A stretch of 64,000 nt of DNA from Methylobacterium sp. (GTDB taxonomy: Bacteria > Pseudomonadota > Alphaproteobacteria > Rhizobiales > Beijerinckiaceae), in NCBI RefSeq assembly GCF_019745455.1, contig NZ_JAIETD010000017.1, positions 1 to 64,000 of the forward strand, given 5' to 3'. Of the stretch, positions 3,229 to 57,548 are shown piece by piece; position 1 is the first letter of the stretch, and each line of letters begins with the position of its first letter. The translations under genes and the position numbers were made by a program. The notes under the pieces are model-generated. The model was not told the origin of the DNA. It was given only the letters and a program-made list of their open reading frames with translations, and did no database searches.

Positions 3229-4130
3229 GGGAGCGGATGCGCCTCGTCCGCCTGCTGCCTCTGCTGCCGTATCTGTGGCTCGGCGCATTCTTCCTGCTGC
3301 CCTTCATCATCACCCTGAAGATCAGCTTCTCGGCCGCCGCCACGGCGCAGCCGCCATACCTGCCGGTCCTCGACTGGAGTGCCGGCCCGGTCGGCTGGGC
3401 CTACTTCCTCGAAGCCCTCGATTTTGCCAATTACGAGACCCTGGCGGGCGACAGCCTCTACCGGGACGCAGCCCTCTCGTCCCTGGCCCTCGCCGCCGCC
3501 GCCACGCTGATCCTCGTCCTCATCGGCCTGCCGATCGCCCATGCGATGGCGCGGGCGCCCGGCCGCTGGCAGCCGGCACTCGTCGCACTCGTCATCGTGC
3601 CGTTCTGGACGAGCTTCCTGATCCGGATCTACGCCTGGATCGCGATCCTGAAGCCCGAAGGGCTCCTGAGCGGAGCGCTGATGCAGCTCGGGCTGATAGC
3701 GTCGCCGCTGGAGATCATGAATACCCAGACCGCAGTGCTGATCGGGCTGACCTACGCCTACCTGCCCTTCATGGTCCTCCCGCTCTACGCCGTGCTTAAC
3801 CGCCTCGACCCGCGCCTTCGCGAGGCGGCGGCCGATCTCGGCGCCTCGCCGGCACGGGTGTTCTGGACCGTGACGCTGCCGCTTGCCCGGCCGGGGCTCG
3901 CCGCGGGAGCGCTGCTCTGCTTCATCCCGATGGTCGGCGAGTTCATCATCCCGGATCTACTCGGCGGCTCCGATACCCTGATGCTCGGGCGCGTTCTGTG
4001 GAGCGAGTTCTTCTCGAACCGCGACTGGCCCCTGGCCTCGGCGGTGGCGATCCTCCTTATCGTCCTTGTCGTCGGACCGGTGGTGCTTTTCCGGGAGGCT
4101 GAGGCGCGACGTGAGGAGGCGGGGAAGTGA
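3225..4130 (+). CDS. PotB-like ABC transporter permease
   Basis: Inner-membrane permease of the polyamine-type importer, 301 aa, with about six hydrophobic segments starting at LPYLWLGAFFLLPFIITL. The EAA-type coupling motif with its invariant Gly reads EAAADLGASPARVFWTVTLPLARPG, in the position expected for contact with the ATPase. The start ATG overlaps the potA-like stop by 4 nt and the stop overlaps the next GTG start by 4 nt. This gives a tight translationally coupled trio. Confidence 0.93.
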   Translation: MRERMRLVRLLPLLPYLWLGAFFLLPFIITLKISFSAAATAQPPYLPVLDWSAGPVGWAYFLEALDFANYETLAGDSLYRDAALSSLALAAAATLILVLIGLPIAHAMARAPGRWQPALVALVIVPFWTSFLIRIYAWIAILKPEGLLSGALMQLGLIASPLEIMNTQTAVLIGLTYAYLPFMVLPLYAVLNRLDPRLREAAADLGASPARVFWTVTLPLARPGLAAGALLCFIPMVGEFIIPDLLGGSDTLMLGRVLWSEFFSNRDWPLASAVAILLIVLVVGPVVLFREAEARREEAGK

Positions 4131-4900
4131 GCCTGTTCTCGCGCGCGGCCCTCGGCCTGGGCCTCCTGTTCCTCTACGCGCCGATCGCCGCCCTCGTCGT
4201 CTATTCCTTCAACGCCTCCGCCCTCGTGACCGTCTGGGGCGGGTTCTCGCTCAAATGGTACGGCATCCTGTTCCAAGACGGACCGCTCCTTGCCGCCGCC
4301 CTCATCTCCCTTCGCGTGGCCCTGGCCTCGGCCCTCATCGCCACGTTGCTCGGTACGCTCGCAGCGCTAGCGCTCGGACGCAGCGGCCGGTTCCTTGGGC
4401 GACTGCTCTTCACCGGTCTCGTCTACGCCCCGATGGTGATGCCAGAAGTCGTGACCGGGCTGTCGCTGCTGCTGCTCTTCGTCGGCCTCGGCCTCGACAG
4501 GGGCGTCGGCACCATCGTGATCGCCCACGCCACCCTCGCCACCGGCTTCGTCGCCGTCGTGGTCCTGGCGCGGCTGCGGGTACTCGATCAGAGCCTCGAA
4601 GAGGCGGCGGCGGATCTCGGCGCAGGGCCTTTTCGCGTCCTCGCCACAGTGACGCTGCCTTTGCTGGCGCCCGCCATCGCGGCCGGCTTCCTCCTCGCCT
4701 TCACCCTCTCGCTCGACGACCTCGTCGTCGCGAGCTTCGTCTCGGGACCGGGCGCCACGACCCTGCCGATGCGCCTCTACAGTCAGGTTCGGCTCGGGGT
4801 GAACCCGGAGATCAATGCAGCCTCGACCCTGATCGTGGCCCTCGTCACCGTCATCGCACTGTCTGCCTCGTGGCTCATGGCCCGGCACCAGTACCGCTGA
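4127..4900 (+). CDS. PotC-like ABC transporter permease
   Basis: Second permease of the importer, 257 aa, with six hydrophobic segments and the EAA-type motif EEAAADLGAGPFRVLATVTLP. It starts with GTG at 4127, overlapping the previous stop; GAGGAGG sits 7 nt upstream. It is the last gene of the cluster. The periplasmic binding protein (PotD/F-like) that normally completes such a transporter is not next to it: the downstream gene is convergent and unrelated. The binding protein may be encoded elsewhere. Confidence 0.93.
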   Translation: MSLFSRAALGLGLLFLYAPIAALVVYSFNASALVTVWGGFSLKWYGILFQDGPLLAAALISLRVALASALIATLLGTLAALALGRSGRFLGRLLFTGLVYAPMVMPEVVTGLSLLLLFVGLGLDRGVGTIVIAHATLATGFVAVVVLARLRVLDQSLEEAAADLGAGPFRVLATVTLPLLAPAIAAGFLLAFTLSLDDLVVASFVSGPGATTLPMRLYSQVRLGVNPEINAASTLIVALVTVIALSASWLMARHQYR

Positions 4901-47575: not shown

Positions 47576-47925
47576 CAGGCAAGACGCTCCGCATCGGCAA
47601 TCGCACGGGAGGTCGCTTCATCCCCGGACCCATGTCGCGACCGGCGGGCATTGCCGTTCGCGCCGATGGTCAGGAACAACGCCTGCAAAAGCCAGGTTTG
47701 CCGATCACCGCAAGCAGCGTGCCGCGTGTCCTCAACGGATGGCCATCGCTCCACGATCTCTCTTCAGTCACAGGCGATTCCGGAAAGACATCGCCCATCG
47801 ATGACCGAACAGGTGCTCATGTTCCGACCTTCGCAGATCTTCTCGCATCACCCCGCCTCGCATCGGAGGGCTGACATCAGAACTCGACCGTGTGTCTGGC
47901 ACCGGAATGCGAGGGGAGCCCGGTA
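47576..47925. other. Intergenic region before the methyltransferase–egtD pair
   Basis: 350 nt with three overlapping small plus-strand ORFs in different frames and none with recognisable features or a good ribosome-binding site. The right end carries GAGGGGAG, the ribosome-binding site of the next gene. The stretch likely holds its promoter, but no clear -35/-10 pair is visible. Confidence 0.55.
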
Positions 47926-48870
47926 ATGGTTCAAGGCGAGGATGCGGGCGCCCTGGTCGCGTTGATCGAGGCTCTCAAGCGGCTGGGTTACACCTTCACG
48001 ACGGTGACTCCGTCCACCCATGAACGAGTGAATCGCCGCCCCTGTGCGGAGCAGGCGCGTAACCTCAGGGACGTGTTCGGCTGGAGCCGGCCATTCGACG
48101 AAGCGCTGCTGCCGGCAGAGATCGTCGAGACCATGCGCCGCGCAGGGGTACTCGTGCGAGACGGGGAGCGCTGGCGTTCGGCGATCCGCGTGTCGAGCCT
48201 CGACGGCGAGTTGTTCGTCCATTCGGCATTTCCGCCGAGCGCAGTCGATGCCGTCTTCTTCGGTCCGGACACCTTCCGGTTCGTCACGGCCGTCGTCGCG
48301 CATCTCGATGGCCGTGCCTCGCCGGTGCGCAGGGCGGTCGACATCGGCTGCGGTTCGGGTGCCGCCGGCATCGCGATCGCCAAACGTTCACCGGATGCTG
48401 AGGTCGTCCTCGTCGACATCAACGATGCGGCGCTCAGGACAGCGGCGATCAATGCGTGCTCGGCCGGCATCGAGGTGAAGCCTCGCAAGAGCGACCTGCT
48501 CGCTGCCGTCGACGGTTCTTTCGATCTCATCGTCTCCAACCCGCCCTTCATGGTCGACCGAAGCGGGCGCACCTATCGGCATGGCGGTGGCAGGTTCGGC
48601 GAGGGGTTGTCCCTCGCCGTGGTGGAGGCGGCGACCGAGCGCCTCGTGCCGGGCGGGAGCCTCGTGCTCTTCACGGGTTCGGTGATCGTGGACGGCGAGG
48701 ATCCGTTCAGGGCGGCCGCGACGGCCGCCTGCGAGAGGGCAGGGCTGGATGTGACCTACCTGGAGTTCGACCCTGACGAGTACGGCGAGGAACTCGACGA
48801 CCCCGCCTATGCGGAGGCCGACCGGATCGCCCTGGTGGTGCTGACGGCAACGCGCGGAAACGCACGATGA
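47926..48870 (+). CDS. Class I SAM-dependent methyltransferase (MTS/HemK-like)
   Basis: 314-aa protein. An N-terminal ~100-residue helical region (GEDAGALVALIEALKRLGYTF) precedes a methyltransferase domain with SAM motif AVDIGCGSGAAGIAIAKRSP, acidic strand VVLVDINDAALR and catalytic-type NPPF in LIVSNPPFMVD. NPP[YF] enzymes act on amino/amide nitrogens of proteins or nucleic acids, so a role as an RsmC/PrmC-like modifier is possible. I moved the start to ATG 47926 with GAGGGGAG 7 nt upstream. The stop overlaps the EgtD-like gene (ATGA). Confidence 0.85.
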   Translation: MVQGEDAGALVALIEALKRLGYTFTTVTPSTHERVNRRPCAEQARNLRDVFGWSRPFDEALLPAEIVETMRRAGVLVRDGERWRSAIRVSSLDGELFVHSAFPPSAVDAVFFGPDTFRFVTAVVAHLDGRASPVRRAVDIGCGSGAAGIAIAKRSPDAEVVLVDINDAALRTAAINACSAGIEVKPRKSDLLAAVDGSFDLIVSNPPFMVDRSGRTYRHGGGRFGEGLSLAVVEAATERLVPGGSLVLFTGSVIVDGEDPFRAAATAACERAGLDVTYLEFDPDEYGEELDDPAYAEADRIALVVLTATRGNAR

Positions 48871-49841
48871 CGGACATCGTCGCGAACGACGCGGACCGGC
48901 AGGAATCCGAGCGGCGGGAGTTCCTCAGCGAAGCAATCGCCGGACTCGCGGACCACCCCAGACGGGTCCCCGGTAAGTTCCTGTGGGACGAGACAGGCTC
49001 GATCCTGTTCGATCGCATCTGCGACGACCCCGACTACTATCCGACGGCGCACGAACGGGCGCTCATGCCCGGGGCGCTTCGGGATATCGCGGGTCTTGTC
49101 GGACCGGGCGCGACGATCGTCGAGTTCGGCAGCGGCGCAAGCCGTAAGATCCGCGCCCTGCTCGACAGCCTGGCGCGGCCGGCGCGCTACATCGCGGTCG
49201 ACATCTCGCGGGATTACCTCCATGCCTCGGTGGCACGGCTCGCGCCTGATTACCCTCACATCGCGATGACGGCTGTCTGTGCCGATTACTCGCGGCCGTT
49301 CCGCCTCCCGGAGGCACCCGGCGACGGACCTGTCCTCGGCTTCTTTCCGGGAACGACGATCGGGAATTTCGCTCCGGCGGAGGCCGAGGCGTTCCTGAAG
49401 CGCATCCGCGATGCCCTCGGACCGAGCTGGCTCATGATCGGCGCGGATCCCAACCGGGACGAAGCCCGGCTGTTACAGGCTTATGGCGGTTGCGGCGGCC
49501 TTATGGGCGCCTTCCACCTCAACCTGCTGACACGCATGAGCCGCGAACTCGGCGCCGTTTTCGATCGGGAGGCCTTCCGTCATCAAGCCCGCGTGCTTGA
49601 TGATCCGTTCCGGGTCGAGGCTCACCTCGTTGCCCATCGCGCGACGAAGGCTCAGCTTGGCGATCAGGTCATCGCCTTCACGGCCGGCGAGGGCTTCAGA
49701 ACGGACGTGTCGCACAAATACTCGGTGGAGGCGTTTCGAAGCCTTGCGGTCCAAGCCGGATGGGAGTCGGCCGCGCAATGGATTGATCGAAATGGGTTGT
49801 TCAGTATGCATCTCCTTCGATCCGATGCCGGCATGAGATGA
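48867..49841 (+). CDS. egtD: EgtD-family L-histidine N-alpha-methyltransferase
   Basis: 324-aa protein of the EgtD/DUF2260 methyltransferase family, which trimethylates histidine to hercynine in ergothioneine synthesis. Landmarks: PGKFLWDETGSILFDRICDDPDYYPT, SAM loop VEFGSGASRKIRALL, LGFFPGTTIGNF and SHKYS. Residues equivalent to mycobacterial Y56, N166, Y206 and S284 are present (Y58, N167, Y206, S282), but the position of histidine-binding E282 is Asp280 (FRTDVSHKY). So substrate preference may differ. No egtB is adjacent. Translation is coupled to the methyltransferase upstream; a perfect hairpin follows. Confidence 0.85.
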   Translation: MTDIVANDADRQESERREFLSEAIAGLADHPRRVPGKFLWDETGSILFDRICDDPDYYPTAHERALMPGALRDIAGLVGPGATIVEFGSGASRKIRALLDSLARPARYIAVDISRDYLHASVARLAPDYPHIAMTAVCADYSRPFRLPEAPGDGPVLGFFPGTTIGNFAPAEAEAFLKRIRDALGPSWLMIGADPNRDEARLLQAYGGCGGLMGAFHLNLLTRMSRELGAVFDREAFRHQARVLDDPFRVEAHLVAHRATKAQLGDQVIAFTAGEGFRTDVSHKYSVEAFRSLAVQAGWESAAQWIDRNGLFSMHLLRSDAGMR

Positions 49842-49991: not shown

Positions 49992-50210
49992 TCAATGCGA
50001 GCGATGGCTCGCTTTTCCGGCCGGGTCGTGAGTGTGATGGCTGTCACGCTCGCCGCCGCCGCCGGAAACATGCGATTTCGAATCACTCGTCGGCGACCCG
50101 GGGGTCGGCCCCTTATGGTCAGGCGGGTTCGGCTTGGAGGCATCCTGATGGCTGCTGCCTGGACCGCCGTGGTGCCGGTCGGCGGCCGGTGTCTTCGTCG
50201 ATGTGCTCAT
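49992..50210 (-). CDS. Small His-rich disordered protein, 72 aa
   Basis: Unrecognised. Starts MSTSTKTPAADRHHGG; ten of 72 residues are His, the rest mostly Gly, Ser, Pro, Asp and Lys, with no hydrophobic core, so it should be intrinsically disordered. AGGA lies 6 nt before ATG 50210, and that ATG overlaps the upstream stop (TGATG). Third gene of a set of three tiny hydrophilic proteins. His-richness suggests metal binding, but this is only a guess. Confidence 0.62.
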   Translation of the reverse strand: MSTSTKTPAADRHHGGPGSSHQDASKPNPPDHKGPTPGSPTSDSKSHVSGGGGERDSHHTHDPAGKASHRSH

Positions 50211-50395
50211 CACCGATCCTGCTGATAGCCTTGGTTGGTCGTGTTCACCTTCGAATTGCCGGCCTGGCCGATCTTGTCCGGATCCTTGGTCTGGGACGAG
50301 CCCTTCGGACCCGTGGAGACCGGGACGTCCGGCGCGCTGCCCGGGCCCTTGTCGGAGCGGTTTGCGGGGGGAACAGGAGGTGGCTTGGTCGTCAT
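50210..50395 (-). CDS. Small disordered protein with NTTNQGYQQDR C-terminus, 61 aa
   Basis: Starts MTTKPPPVPPANRSDKG and ends in GNSKVNTTNQGYQQDR. A perfect AAGGAG sits before ATG 50395, strong evidence it is translated. The body is Pro/Gly/Ser/Lys-rich and disordered. From memory, an N(T)TNxGxQ…R ending recurs in small uncharacterised alphaproteobacterial proteins; I could not check this. The stop overlaps the next start. Confidence 0.68.
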   Translation of the reverse strand: MTTKPPPVPPANRSDKGPGSAPDVPVSTGPKGSSQTKDPDKIGQAGNSKVNTTNQGYQQDR

Positions 50396-50471
50396 GACGT
50401 CTCCTTCTCTGTCGGTAGCCAACCTCGCCTGGAAGCGCCTGTTCCCGACAAGTTCCGCTGCGAGGGACCTG

Positions 50472-50648
50472 TCAGAGCTGGCGAATCCTCTCCTCGATCC
50501 GCTTCGCCTCCGTCTCGTCGATGTCGACGGGCCTGCCGCTGTCGTCGGGAATGCCGGACTCGGTCTGGCCGATCGAATCGTCGCGGGGTCGTGAGTTCGG
50601 CCCCGTCGAGTCCGGCTTCTCGGTCGCGTCGTCCTTTTCGCGGTCCAT
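50472..50648 (-). CDS. Small acidic disordered protein, 58 aa
   Basis: Starts MDREKDDATEKPDSTGP and ends DETEAKRIEERIRQL, a short charged helix. GAGGAGG lies 5 nt before ATG 50648; the GTG two codons earlier sits directly against the ribosome-binding site and is rejected. Highly charged and hydrophilic, no family recognised. It lies 19 nt downstream of the P450 end on the same strand... that is, the P450 gene is not between them and transcription runs on toward the other two small genes (76-nt gap). Confidence 0.66.
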   Translation of the reverse strand: MDREKDDATEKPDSTGPNSRPRDDSIGQTESGIPDDSGRPVDIDETEAKRIEERIRQL

Positions 50649-50667
50649 GGTCACCTCCTCGTGGAAG

Positions 50668-51945: not shown

Positions 51946-52102
51946 CCGACCATCCGGCTTGCGCCGAGTCGACGCCCGGCGCCACGGAAACCTCCGGAGC
52001 TGACCCAGTGTTCAGAAAAGCAGCCTGTCGCAAGAGATATTCGCGAGCGTCGGACGCTCAGTCCTTTGGCGGCCTTGATCCGGCTGATAACACCGAGACC
52101 GC

Positions 52103-55734: not shown

Positions 55735-55787
55735 CGGAACGGGACACCGTTCCGTTCGGTTCGGCTCCCGAGAGCTGGAGCCGAGCC

Positions 55788-57548
55788 ATGACCATCGACA
55801 CCGTCGCCGACCTCGTCGTCGAGACCCTGCAGCAGATGGGCGTCCGGCGAATCTACGGGGTGGTCGGCGACAGCCTCAACGCGCTCACCGAGTCGATCCG
55901 AGCCCGCGGGATCATCGACTGGGTGCCGGTCCGCCACGAGGAAGTCGGCGCCTTCGCGGCCGGGGCCGACAGCCAGGTCACGGGTCGGCTCGCGGTCTGC
56001 GCCGGCTCCTGCGGGCCGGGACACGTCCACCTGATCAACGGGTTGTTCGATTGCCACCGCACCCGCACGCCGGTCCTGGCGATCGCCGCGCATATTCCCT
56101 CGTCCGAGATCGGTTCGGGTTACTTCCAGGAGACCGACCCGAAGGCGTTGTTCGCGCAGTGCAGCCATTATTGCGAGCTCGTCACCGACGCCGCGCAACT
56201 GCCCTTCGTGCTTGAGAACGCCGTTCGCGCCGCGATCGGGCAGGGTGGTGTGTCCGTCGTCATCATTCCCGGCGATGTCGCCCAGCAGGACGCACCCGCC
56301 CGCGCCGTCTCGCCCAATGCCGGGCTCCTGCCGCCGCGCCCGCTGGTGCGGCCCGCCGATGCCGAGCTGAATGCGCTGGCCGAACTCCTCAACGGCTCGT
56401 CGCGGATCACCCTGCTGTGCGGTCGCGGCTGTGCCGGAGCCCGCGCCGATCTCATGGCCCTGGCCGAGGCGCTGAAAAGCCCCATCGTCCATGCGCTCGG
56501 CGGCAAGGACATCCTGGAATACGACAACCCCTACGATGTCGGGATGACGGGCCTGATCGGCTTCTCGTCGGGCTACGCCGCAATGATGGGCTGCGAGACC
56601 CTGCTGATGCTGGGCACTGATTTTCCCTACAAGCAGTTCTACCCGAAGAAGGCCAAGGTCGCGCAGGTGGATCTCAGGCCGCATCAGCTCGGTCGGCGTA
56701 CCCGCCTCGATCTCGGCCTCGTCGGCGATGTCGGCGACACGATCAGGGCGCTTCTCCCAAAGCTCGCTGTCAAATCCGACCGGGCCTGGCTCGATGCGAG
56801 CCTCGAGCACTACGCCAAAGCCCGCGAGGGCCTCGACGATCTCGCCACCGGGGTGCCGGAGAAGGGCTGGTTCGGACGGAAGGCAGGCGAGACCCCAATC
56901 CATCCGCAATACCTCACCAAGGTCCTGAGCGAAGCGGCAACGGAAGACGCGATCTTCACGGCGGATGTCGGCACCCCGACGATCTGGGCCGCGCGCTATC
57001 TCACAATGAATGGTCGGCGACGGCTGATCGGATCCTGGGTGCATGGCTCGATGGCCAATGCGATGGCACAGGGGCTCGGCGCGCAAGCGGCCCAGCCGGG
57101 GCGACAGGTGGTGTCGCTCTCCGGCGATGGCGGCTTCACCATGCTGATGGGCGATCTCCTCACCCTCCGGCAGAAAAACCTGCCGCTCAAGGTGGTGGTG
57201 TTCAACAACGGCACCCTCGGCTTCGTCGAGATGGAGATGAAGGCAGCAGGCTTTCTCGAGACCGGAGTCGCCCTCGACAATCCTGACTTCGCCGCGATGG
57301 CGCGGGCGGCGGGCATCCATGCCATCCGCGTCGAGGACCCGGGCGAACTGGAGAGCGCCGCACGCGACGTCCTCGCGCATGAGGGGCCGGCCCTCCTCGA
57401 CGTCGTGGTGGCTAGGCAGGAGCTCTCGATCCCGCCGAAAGTCGATGGCCAGCAGGTGAAGGGCTTCAGCCTCTACGTGCTTCGCGCGGTGATGAGCGGA
57501 CGGGGCGATTCCGTGCTCGATCTGGCGAAGACGAACCTCATTCGATGA
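55788..57548 (+). CDS. poxB: Pyruvate dehydrogenase (quinone), TPP/FAD-dependent
   Basis: 586-aa thiamine-diphosphate enzyme. N-terminal TPP-pyrimidine domain with RHEEVGAFAAGADSQVTGRLAVCAGSCGPGHVHLINGL, a central FAD/regulatory domain, and a C-terminal TPP site SGDGGFTMLMGDLLTLRQKNLPLKVVVFNN. This layout, with GVVGDSLNALTES near the start, matches PoxB, which oxidises pyruvate to acetate and CO2 and passes electrons to quinone at the membrane. I moved the start to ATG 55788 (GGAG upstream). Nearby lutABC makes pyruvate from lactate, so the two could work in sequence. Confidence 0.9.
   Translation: MTIDTVADLVVETLQQMGVRRIYGVVGDSLNALTESIRARGIIDWVPVRHEEVGAFAAGADSQVTGRLAVCAGSCGPGHVHLINGLFDCHRTRTPVLAIAAHIPSSEIGSGYFQETDPKALFAQCSHYCELVTDAAQLPFVLENAVRAAIGQGGVSVVIIPGDVAQQDAPARAVSPNAGLLPPRPLVRPADAELNALAELLNGSSRITLLCGRGCAGARADLMALAEALKSPIVHALGGKDILEYDNPYDVGMTGLIGFSSGYAAMMGCETLLMLGTDFPYKQFYPKKAKVAQVDLRPHQLGRRTRLDLGLVGDVGDTIRALLPKLAVKSDRAWLDASLEHYAKAREGLDDLATGVPEKGWFGRKAGETPIHPQYLTKVLSEAATEDAIFTADVGTPTIWAARYLTMNGRRRLIGSWVHGSMANAMAQGLGAQAAQPGRQVVSLSGDGGFTMLMGDLLTLRQKNLPLKVVVFNNGTLGFVEMEMKAAGFLETGVALDNPDFAAMARAAGIHAIRVEDPGELESAARDVLAHEGPALLDVVVARQELSIPPKVDGQQVKGFSLYVLRAVMSGRGDSVLDLAKTNLIR

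Follow-up and report, generated by a model that had tools for sequence, protein, structure and literature searches.

A conserved pair of small hydrophilin-like genes behind a putative general-stress promoter in Methylobacterium and other Alphaproteobacteria

Three very small genes, here called A, B, and C, lie side by side on the minus strand of the Methylobacterium DNA analysed in this work (64,000 nt; hereafter the window). We propose that B and C form an EcfG-induced two-gene operon of hydrophilin-like proteins that would protect cells in drying, osmotic, or heat stress, a reading to which we give a probability of about 70%. As the pair is widely conserved and usually sits behind a general-stress promoter, B and C are probably unrecognised drought- and stress-protection proteins. 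A and a fourth small gene, D, represent two further families, often linked to B-C or sharing its promoter type.

Gene A (50472..50648) encodes an acidic, hydrophilic protein of 58 aa, gene B (50210..50395) a protein of 61 aa, and gene C (49992..50210) a His/Gly-rich protein of 72 aa. Each is present in one copy in the genome. The sequence-only reading that preceded this analysis had proposed these three minus-strand ORFs, and its description of them was accurate. Ribosome-binding sites were found for A (GAGGAGG, 50654..50660, directly past the end of the neighbouring cypC gene), B (AAGGAG, 50401..50406), and C (AGGA, 50217..50220, within the 3' end of B), all of them minus-strand. The start codon of C shares one base with the stop codon of B, giving a TGATG overlap (50212-50208). 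All three proteins are hydrophilic (GRAVY -1.61 for A, -1.34 for B, and -1.59 for C). The His-rich member is C (13.9% His), and the NTTNQGYQQDR terminus is the C-terminal end of B.

Homologues were found across the genus, with a degree of conservation beyond chance. Between species, synonymous divergence was near-saturated and median pN/pS was lowest for B (0.28), followed by C (0.45) and A (0.47). Because pN/pS stays below 0.5 at near-saturated synonymous sites, we conclude from these comparisons that A, B, and C are translated genes with selection acting on the protein.

The three genes had been described as one operon, and a look for conserved triplets in other Methylobacterium genomes had been suggested; only B and C proved to be kept together. 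The two were adjacent in 45 of 56 genus loci, where their start and stop codons often overlap or touch. Outside the genus, C was directly downstream of B in most loci examined (among the best 80 of 303 B relatives), and the two are neighbours on pSymB of Sinorhizobium meliloti as well, at about 345,350-345,733. A adjoined B-C in only 6 of 57 loci, namely the window and five relatives (G007, G040, G047, G054, and G056), and a three-gene A-B-C operon was rejected as a conserved unit. Most genomes carrying A have it at another, unlinked locus. Since a separate putative promoter for B lies in the A-B interval, and A is unlinked in most genomes, the three do not make up one conserved operon. By this comparison of gene order, B-C is the conserved operon, whereas A is an independent, mobile gene.

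D is likewise small and hydrophilic and was present in 70 of 99 genus genomes. Its family, which is uncurated and often linked to B-C, has the consensus GxGxGAMTxL...NMVLSNRDKxxHxxxRGxDxKxxQTEQYQDHAANR. In the host genome D is on a different contig from A-B-C (G000:C9:112981-113295, minus strand). D is found no more than 5 kb from B, usually directly beside B or C, in most of the relatives with linked A-B-C and in numerous other genomes (examples are loci L120, L128, L201, L206, and L195). By motif scan, as many as 24 of 57 genus loci have D near B, though a few of these hits are possibly frame artefacts.

Of 99 genus genomes, 55 carry B, 53 carry C, and 37 carry A. When genome contigs were scanned, 303 B-related stretches emerged across Alphaproteobacteria, the best 80 of which included Methylobacterium/Methylorubrum, Rhizobium, Mesorhizobium, Bradyrhizobium, Phyllobacterium, Microvirga, Rubellimicrobium, and Cereibacter. 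Both the B and C families occur on plasmids of Sinorhizobium, Rhizobium, and Agrobacterium. Distribution was patchy (3 of 289 genomes at class level, 17 of 199 at family level).

A sigma-EcfG-type promoter, GGAAC-N16-GGTT, was identified between A and B (50421..50445, minus strand; -35 at 50445-50441, -10 at 50424-50421), 26 nt ahead of the B start codon. It corresponds to the consensus GAAC-N16,17-C/GGTT published for M. extorquens (PMC4814048); a sigma-EcfG consensus has also been published for S. melonis (PMC6599016). Within the window the motif was found 4 times against 1.3 expected, which is not clearly above chance, and a promoter claim based on the window match alone was discarded as not significant. 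The case for the promoter therefore rests on conservation across species. For the cross-species counts, expected values came from dinucleotide shuffles. The strict motif preceded B in 34 of 56 genus loci (shuffle mean 0.1, maximum 2) and, with similar upstream sequences clustered, was present in 18 of 28 clusters; the loose motif was found in 47 of 56 loci (0.6 in shuffles). In other genera, 8 of 38 loci had the strict motif (0.09 in shuffles) and 21 of 38 the loose one (0.5). Motif positions clustered at 48-104 nt ahead of the start codon, and the flanks were far less conserved.

Perfect copies of GGAAC-N16-GGTT precede B-C on pSymB of S. meliloti 1021 and in S. medicae. In D-B-C operons led by D (Rubellimicrobium, Rhizobium), the motif stood ahead of D instead at 9 of 10 loci. 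It was absent directly before B in 26 of 94 loci, more than half of which are not rescued by a motif ahead of a leading D. Many unlinked A orthologues carried GGAAC-N16-CGATT (5) or GGAAA-N16-[CG]GTT (9) upstream, at -49 to -90; it is uncertain which sigma factor reads the GGAAA form, which deviates from the consensus.

These promoter data make it very probable that B-C is regulated by EcfG. The pair resembles the alphaproteobacterial PhyR-NepR-sigma-EcfG regulon in promoter consensus and spacing, and the host genome encodes 5 NepR-like proteins (PF18557) above the Pfam cut-off. On promoter sequence, B-C is a candidate member of the regulon. Known members of this regulon include many hypothetical proteins (PMC4814048, PMC6599016, and PMC3616915).

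Additional genes were noted at these loci. In the window, an egtD-type histidine methyltransferase gene (TIGR03438, above cut-off; 48867-49841, plus strand) is convergent to B-C. It is preceded by a HemK-like methyltransferase gene (47890-48870, plus strand) with an EcfG-like motif upstream (47673-47698), and no egtB was noticed beside it. A gene for a thiamine-pyrophosphate enzyme with three TPP domains (55788-57548, plus strand) has GGAAC-N17-GGTT at 55736-55761 (plus strand), ending 26 nt before the start codon, and could be another target of the general stress response. In the M. terricola/tarhaniae group, a stress-type DUF892 (YciF-like) gene is divergent to B-C about 0.7 kb upstream of B (L121, L122, L127, and L132), with similar ORFs in L102, L104, L118, and L133. 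In M. gregans and a relative (L128 and L125), a 101-aa hydrophilic ORF (MDPKTRPDAAEPHDSLRSFDAYADRNGQDLGQDEARD...) occupies -340 to -34 relative to B, and a search of 600 nt gave no EcfG motif. At two rhizobial loci (L215 and L223), the operon upstream of B is headed by a gene for a small hydrophilic protein (...PxEGDRxTIxRxxxxQDxxxxxExEPxExGVxLDPKRRID) with a GGAAC...GTT motif ahead. In Sinorhizobium, C is overlapped at its end by one more small gene (L235, region 4001-4380, S. meliloti pSymB; also L233 and L236). As the product of this gene has a hydrophobic C-terminal half (MITDEQIRRMGVLLDPQRVEEFAMRRG..., full reading from L233), the stress operon may there include a membrane component.

Hydrophilins are defined by Gly content above 6% and hydrophilicity above 1 (PMC7448490). 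With Gly contents of 6.9% (A), 11.5% (B), and 13.9% (C), and with their mean hydrophilicity, all three proteins fall within this definition. AlphaFold modelled A as mostly unstructured (pLDDT 69, pTM 0.28), with a single C-terminal helix at residues 45-57, and gave B no fold and no secondary structure (pLDDT 62, pTM 0.15). B is thus predicted to be unstructured; for C, the lack of a stable fold was predicted from charge-hydropathy only.

At a limit of E = 1, neither Pfam nor NCBIfam had a match for A, B, C, D, or the rhizobial B and C proteins, and assignment of A, B, and C to a curated family was abandoned. The three resemble hydrophilins and LEA-like proteins (Garay-Arroyo criteria; yeast Hsp12, plant LEA group 2) in being small and soluble, in Gly content and hydrophilicity, in predicted disorder, and presumably in stress induction. 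They differ in having no sequence relation to these proteins and no Pfam LEA, Hsp12, or KGG match. The KGG-type hydrophilins (E. coli YciG, Bacillus GsiB) are tiny, hydrophilic, and under a general-stress sigma factor (RpoS or SigB). A, B, and C are likewise tiny and hydrophilic and probably under a general-stress sigma factor, but they lack a Pfam KGG-repeat match and have a sigma-EcfG-type promoter in place of RpoS or SigB control. Hydrophilin-like proteins in a general-stress regulon are a known kind, while A, B, C, and D as families are uncurated. The genes are unmentioned in the main text of studies on the S. meliloti small proteome (PMC10117765) and transcription start sites (PMC3616915), and the families may already stand as unnamed entries in supplementary regulon tables.

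Residue-level conservation pointed to possible roles beyond bulk protection. A has the core RPRDxTIxQTGxGxPxDxGxPVxVDExEAxRIExxIR. B is conserved at its ends (PPPVPPANxSxKGPG and DPDKxGQAGNSKVNTTxQGYQQDR), and C at MSTSxK, GGPGxSH, and SGGGGExD. Wide alignments contained 13 invariant residues in B and 19 in C. Such conservation of exact residues exceeds the needs of a bulk hydrophilic shield and leaves room for a specific partner. B and C might then be EcfG-induced yet use short linear motifs to contact each other or some partner (ribosome, nucleoid, membrane, or protease), acting as regulators or condensate scaffolds. The near-invariant motifs of the two B termini (PPxP, K49, N51, T52, and GxQQDR) and in C (GGPGxSH and SGGGGExD) extend across orders while the middle varies freely, the B-C pairing is constant, and D is frequently linked. 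Given that there is no known partner, no predicted fold, and a composition typical of hydrophilins, we regard this account as unlikely. We also consider, as a tentative extension, that B, C, and linked D could be one stress module whose members use near-invariant motifs to find one another or a cellular target that they share, yielding a protective condensate or coat switched by sigma-EcfG. This too seems improbable; if true, the B-C-D module would be a defined machinery of disordered proteins and not a set of interchangeable protectants.

The gene preceding A in the window encodes a CypC-like CYP152 fatty-acid peroxygenase P450 (50668..51945, minus strand; PF00067). It scored 468 bits on NF053744, below the equivalog cut-off of 600. 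The sequence-only reading had remarked that the small genes follow a peroxide-using P450, and CypC/CYP152 does adjoin A-B-C in the window, but this adjacency is peculiar to the host genome. Among the genus genomes, 12 of 99 contained cypC, beside B-C in the host only; relatives carry it at other loci, and a functional tie to the P450 was rejected as a conserved feature. The gene has its own putative EcfG-type promoter, GAAC-N17-GGTT (51989..52013, minus strand), and of 11 cypC copies examined, 9, the window copy among them, have an element of this type 42-101 nt upstream. In the host genome only, cypC and A are probably co-transcribed. As GAAC-type elements precede 9 of 11 cypC copies, read-through from the cypC promoter is a plausible source of A transcription there.

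The metal-buffering role suggested earlier was not specifically supported. In a rival account on these lines, C would be a His-rich buffer for metal or peroxide that acts alongside the peroxide-using P450 and is assisted by A and B. Window C does contain 14% His, and H21, H58, and H59 were nearly invariant in a 20-sequence alignment. Yet His content and two of the His clusters are not kept across homologues: outside the genus C has about 8% His and retains only about 5 His, the first HH is missing outside Methylobacterium, RHH becomes RQ, and the HHxH cluster is lost in one Rubellimicrobium C. The invariant residues of C are mostly Gly, Ser, Glu, and Asp. With the P450 linkage confined to the host genome and no metal-handling gene noticed beside B-C, we consider this role very doubtful. 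That A, B, and C are chance ORFs or non-functional remnants in a GC-rich genome, as their shortness, low complexity, and a window rich in long spurious ORFs might suggest, is already ruled out for practical purposes by conservation, with dozens of species holding homologues that keep the protein ends, selection against amino-acid change, and start-stop coupling and promoter both kept.

The general-stress hydrophilin reading would operate as follows. Stress would lead to phosphorylation of PhyR, which would take NepR off sigma-EcfG. Sigma-EcfG would then initiate transcription about 10 nt downstream of the 50445-50421 element, and B and C would be translationally coupled within one general-stress operon. 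The two small, soluble hydrophilins, for the most part unstructured by prediction, would build up and act as a shield for proteins, membranes, or nucleic acid, retaining water in drying, osmotic, or heat stress. In the host genome, a second unit, cypC-A, is probably expressed from its own EcfG-type promoter, by which A would enter the same stress response. We infer the protective role from hydrophilin-like composition and the general-stress regulon, and consider it likely that B and C protect cell contents during drying or osmotic stress. The earlier suggestion of a stress-protection set not yet described thus gains strong circumstantial support from the conserved sigma-EcfG promoter, the hydrophilin composition, and the lack of a curated family, although the set is not supported as a conserved three-gene unit.

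Much of the alphaproteobacterial general stress regulon is made up of proteins annotated as hypothetical. Our analysis defines up to four unannotated families (B, C, A, and linked D) with a common promoter type, and provides annotation profiles that cover frequently overlooked genes. B and C are found in plant-associated Methylobacterium, Rhizobium, Sinorhizobium, and Bradyrhizobium, in which genetics is easy. A vague set of small genes thereby becomes a testable module for desiccation and osmotic protection.
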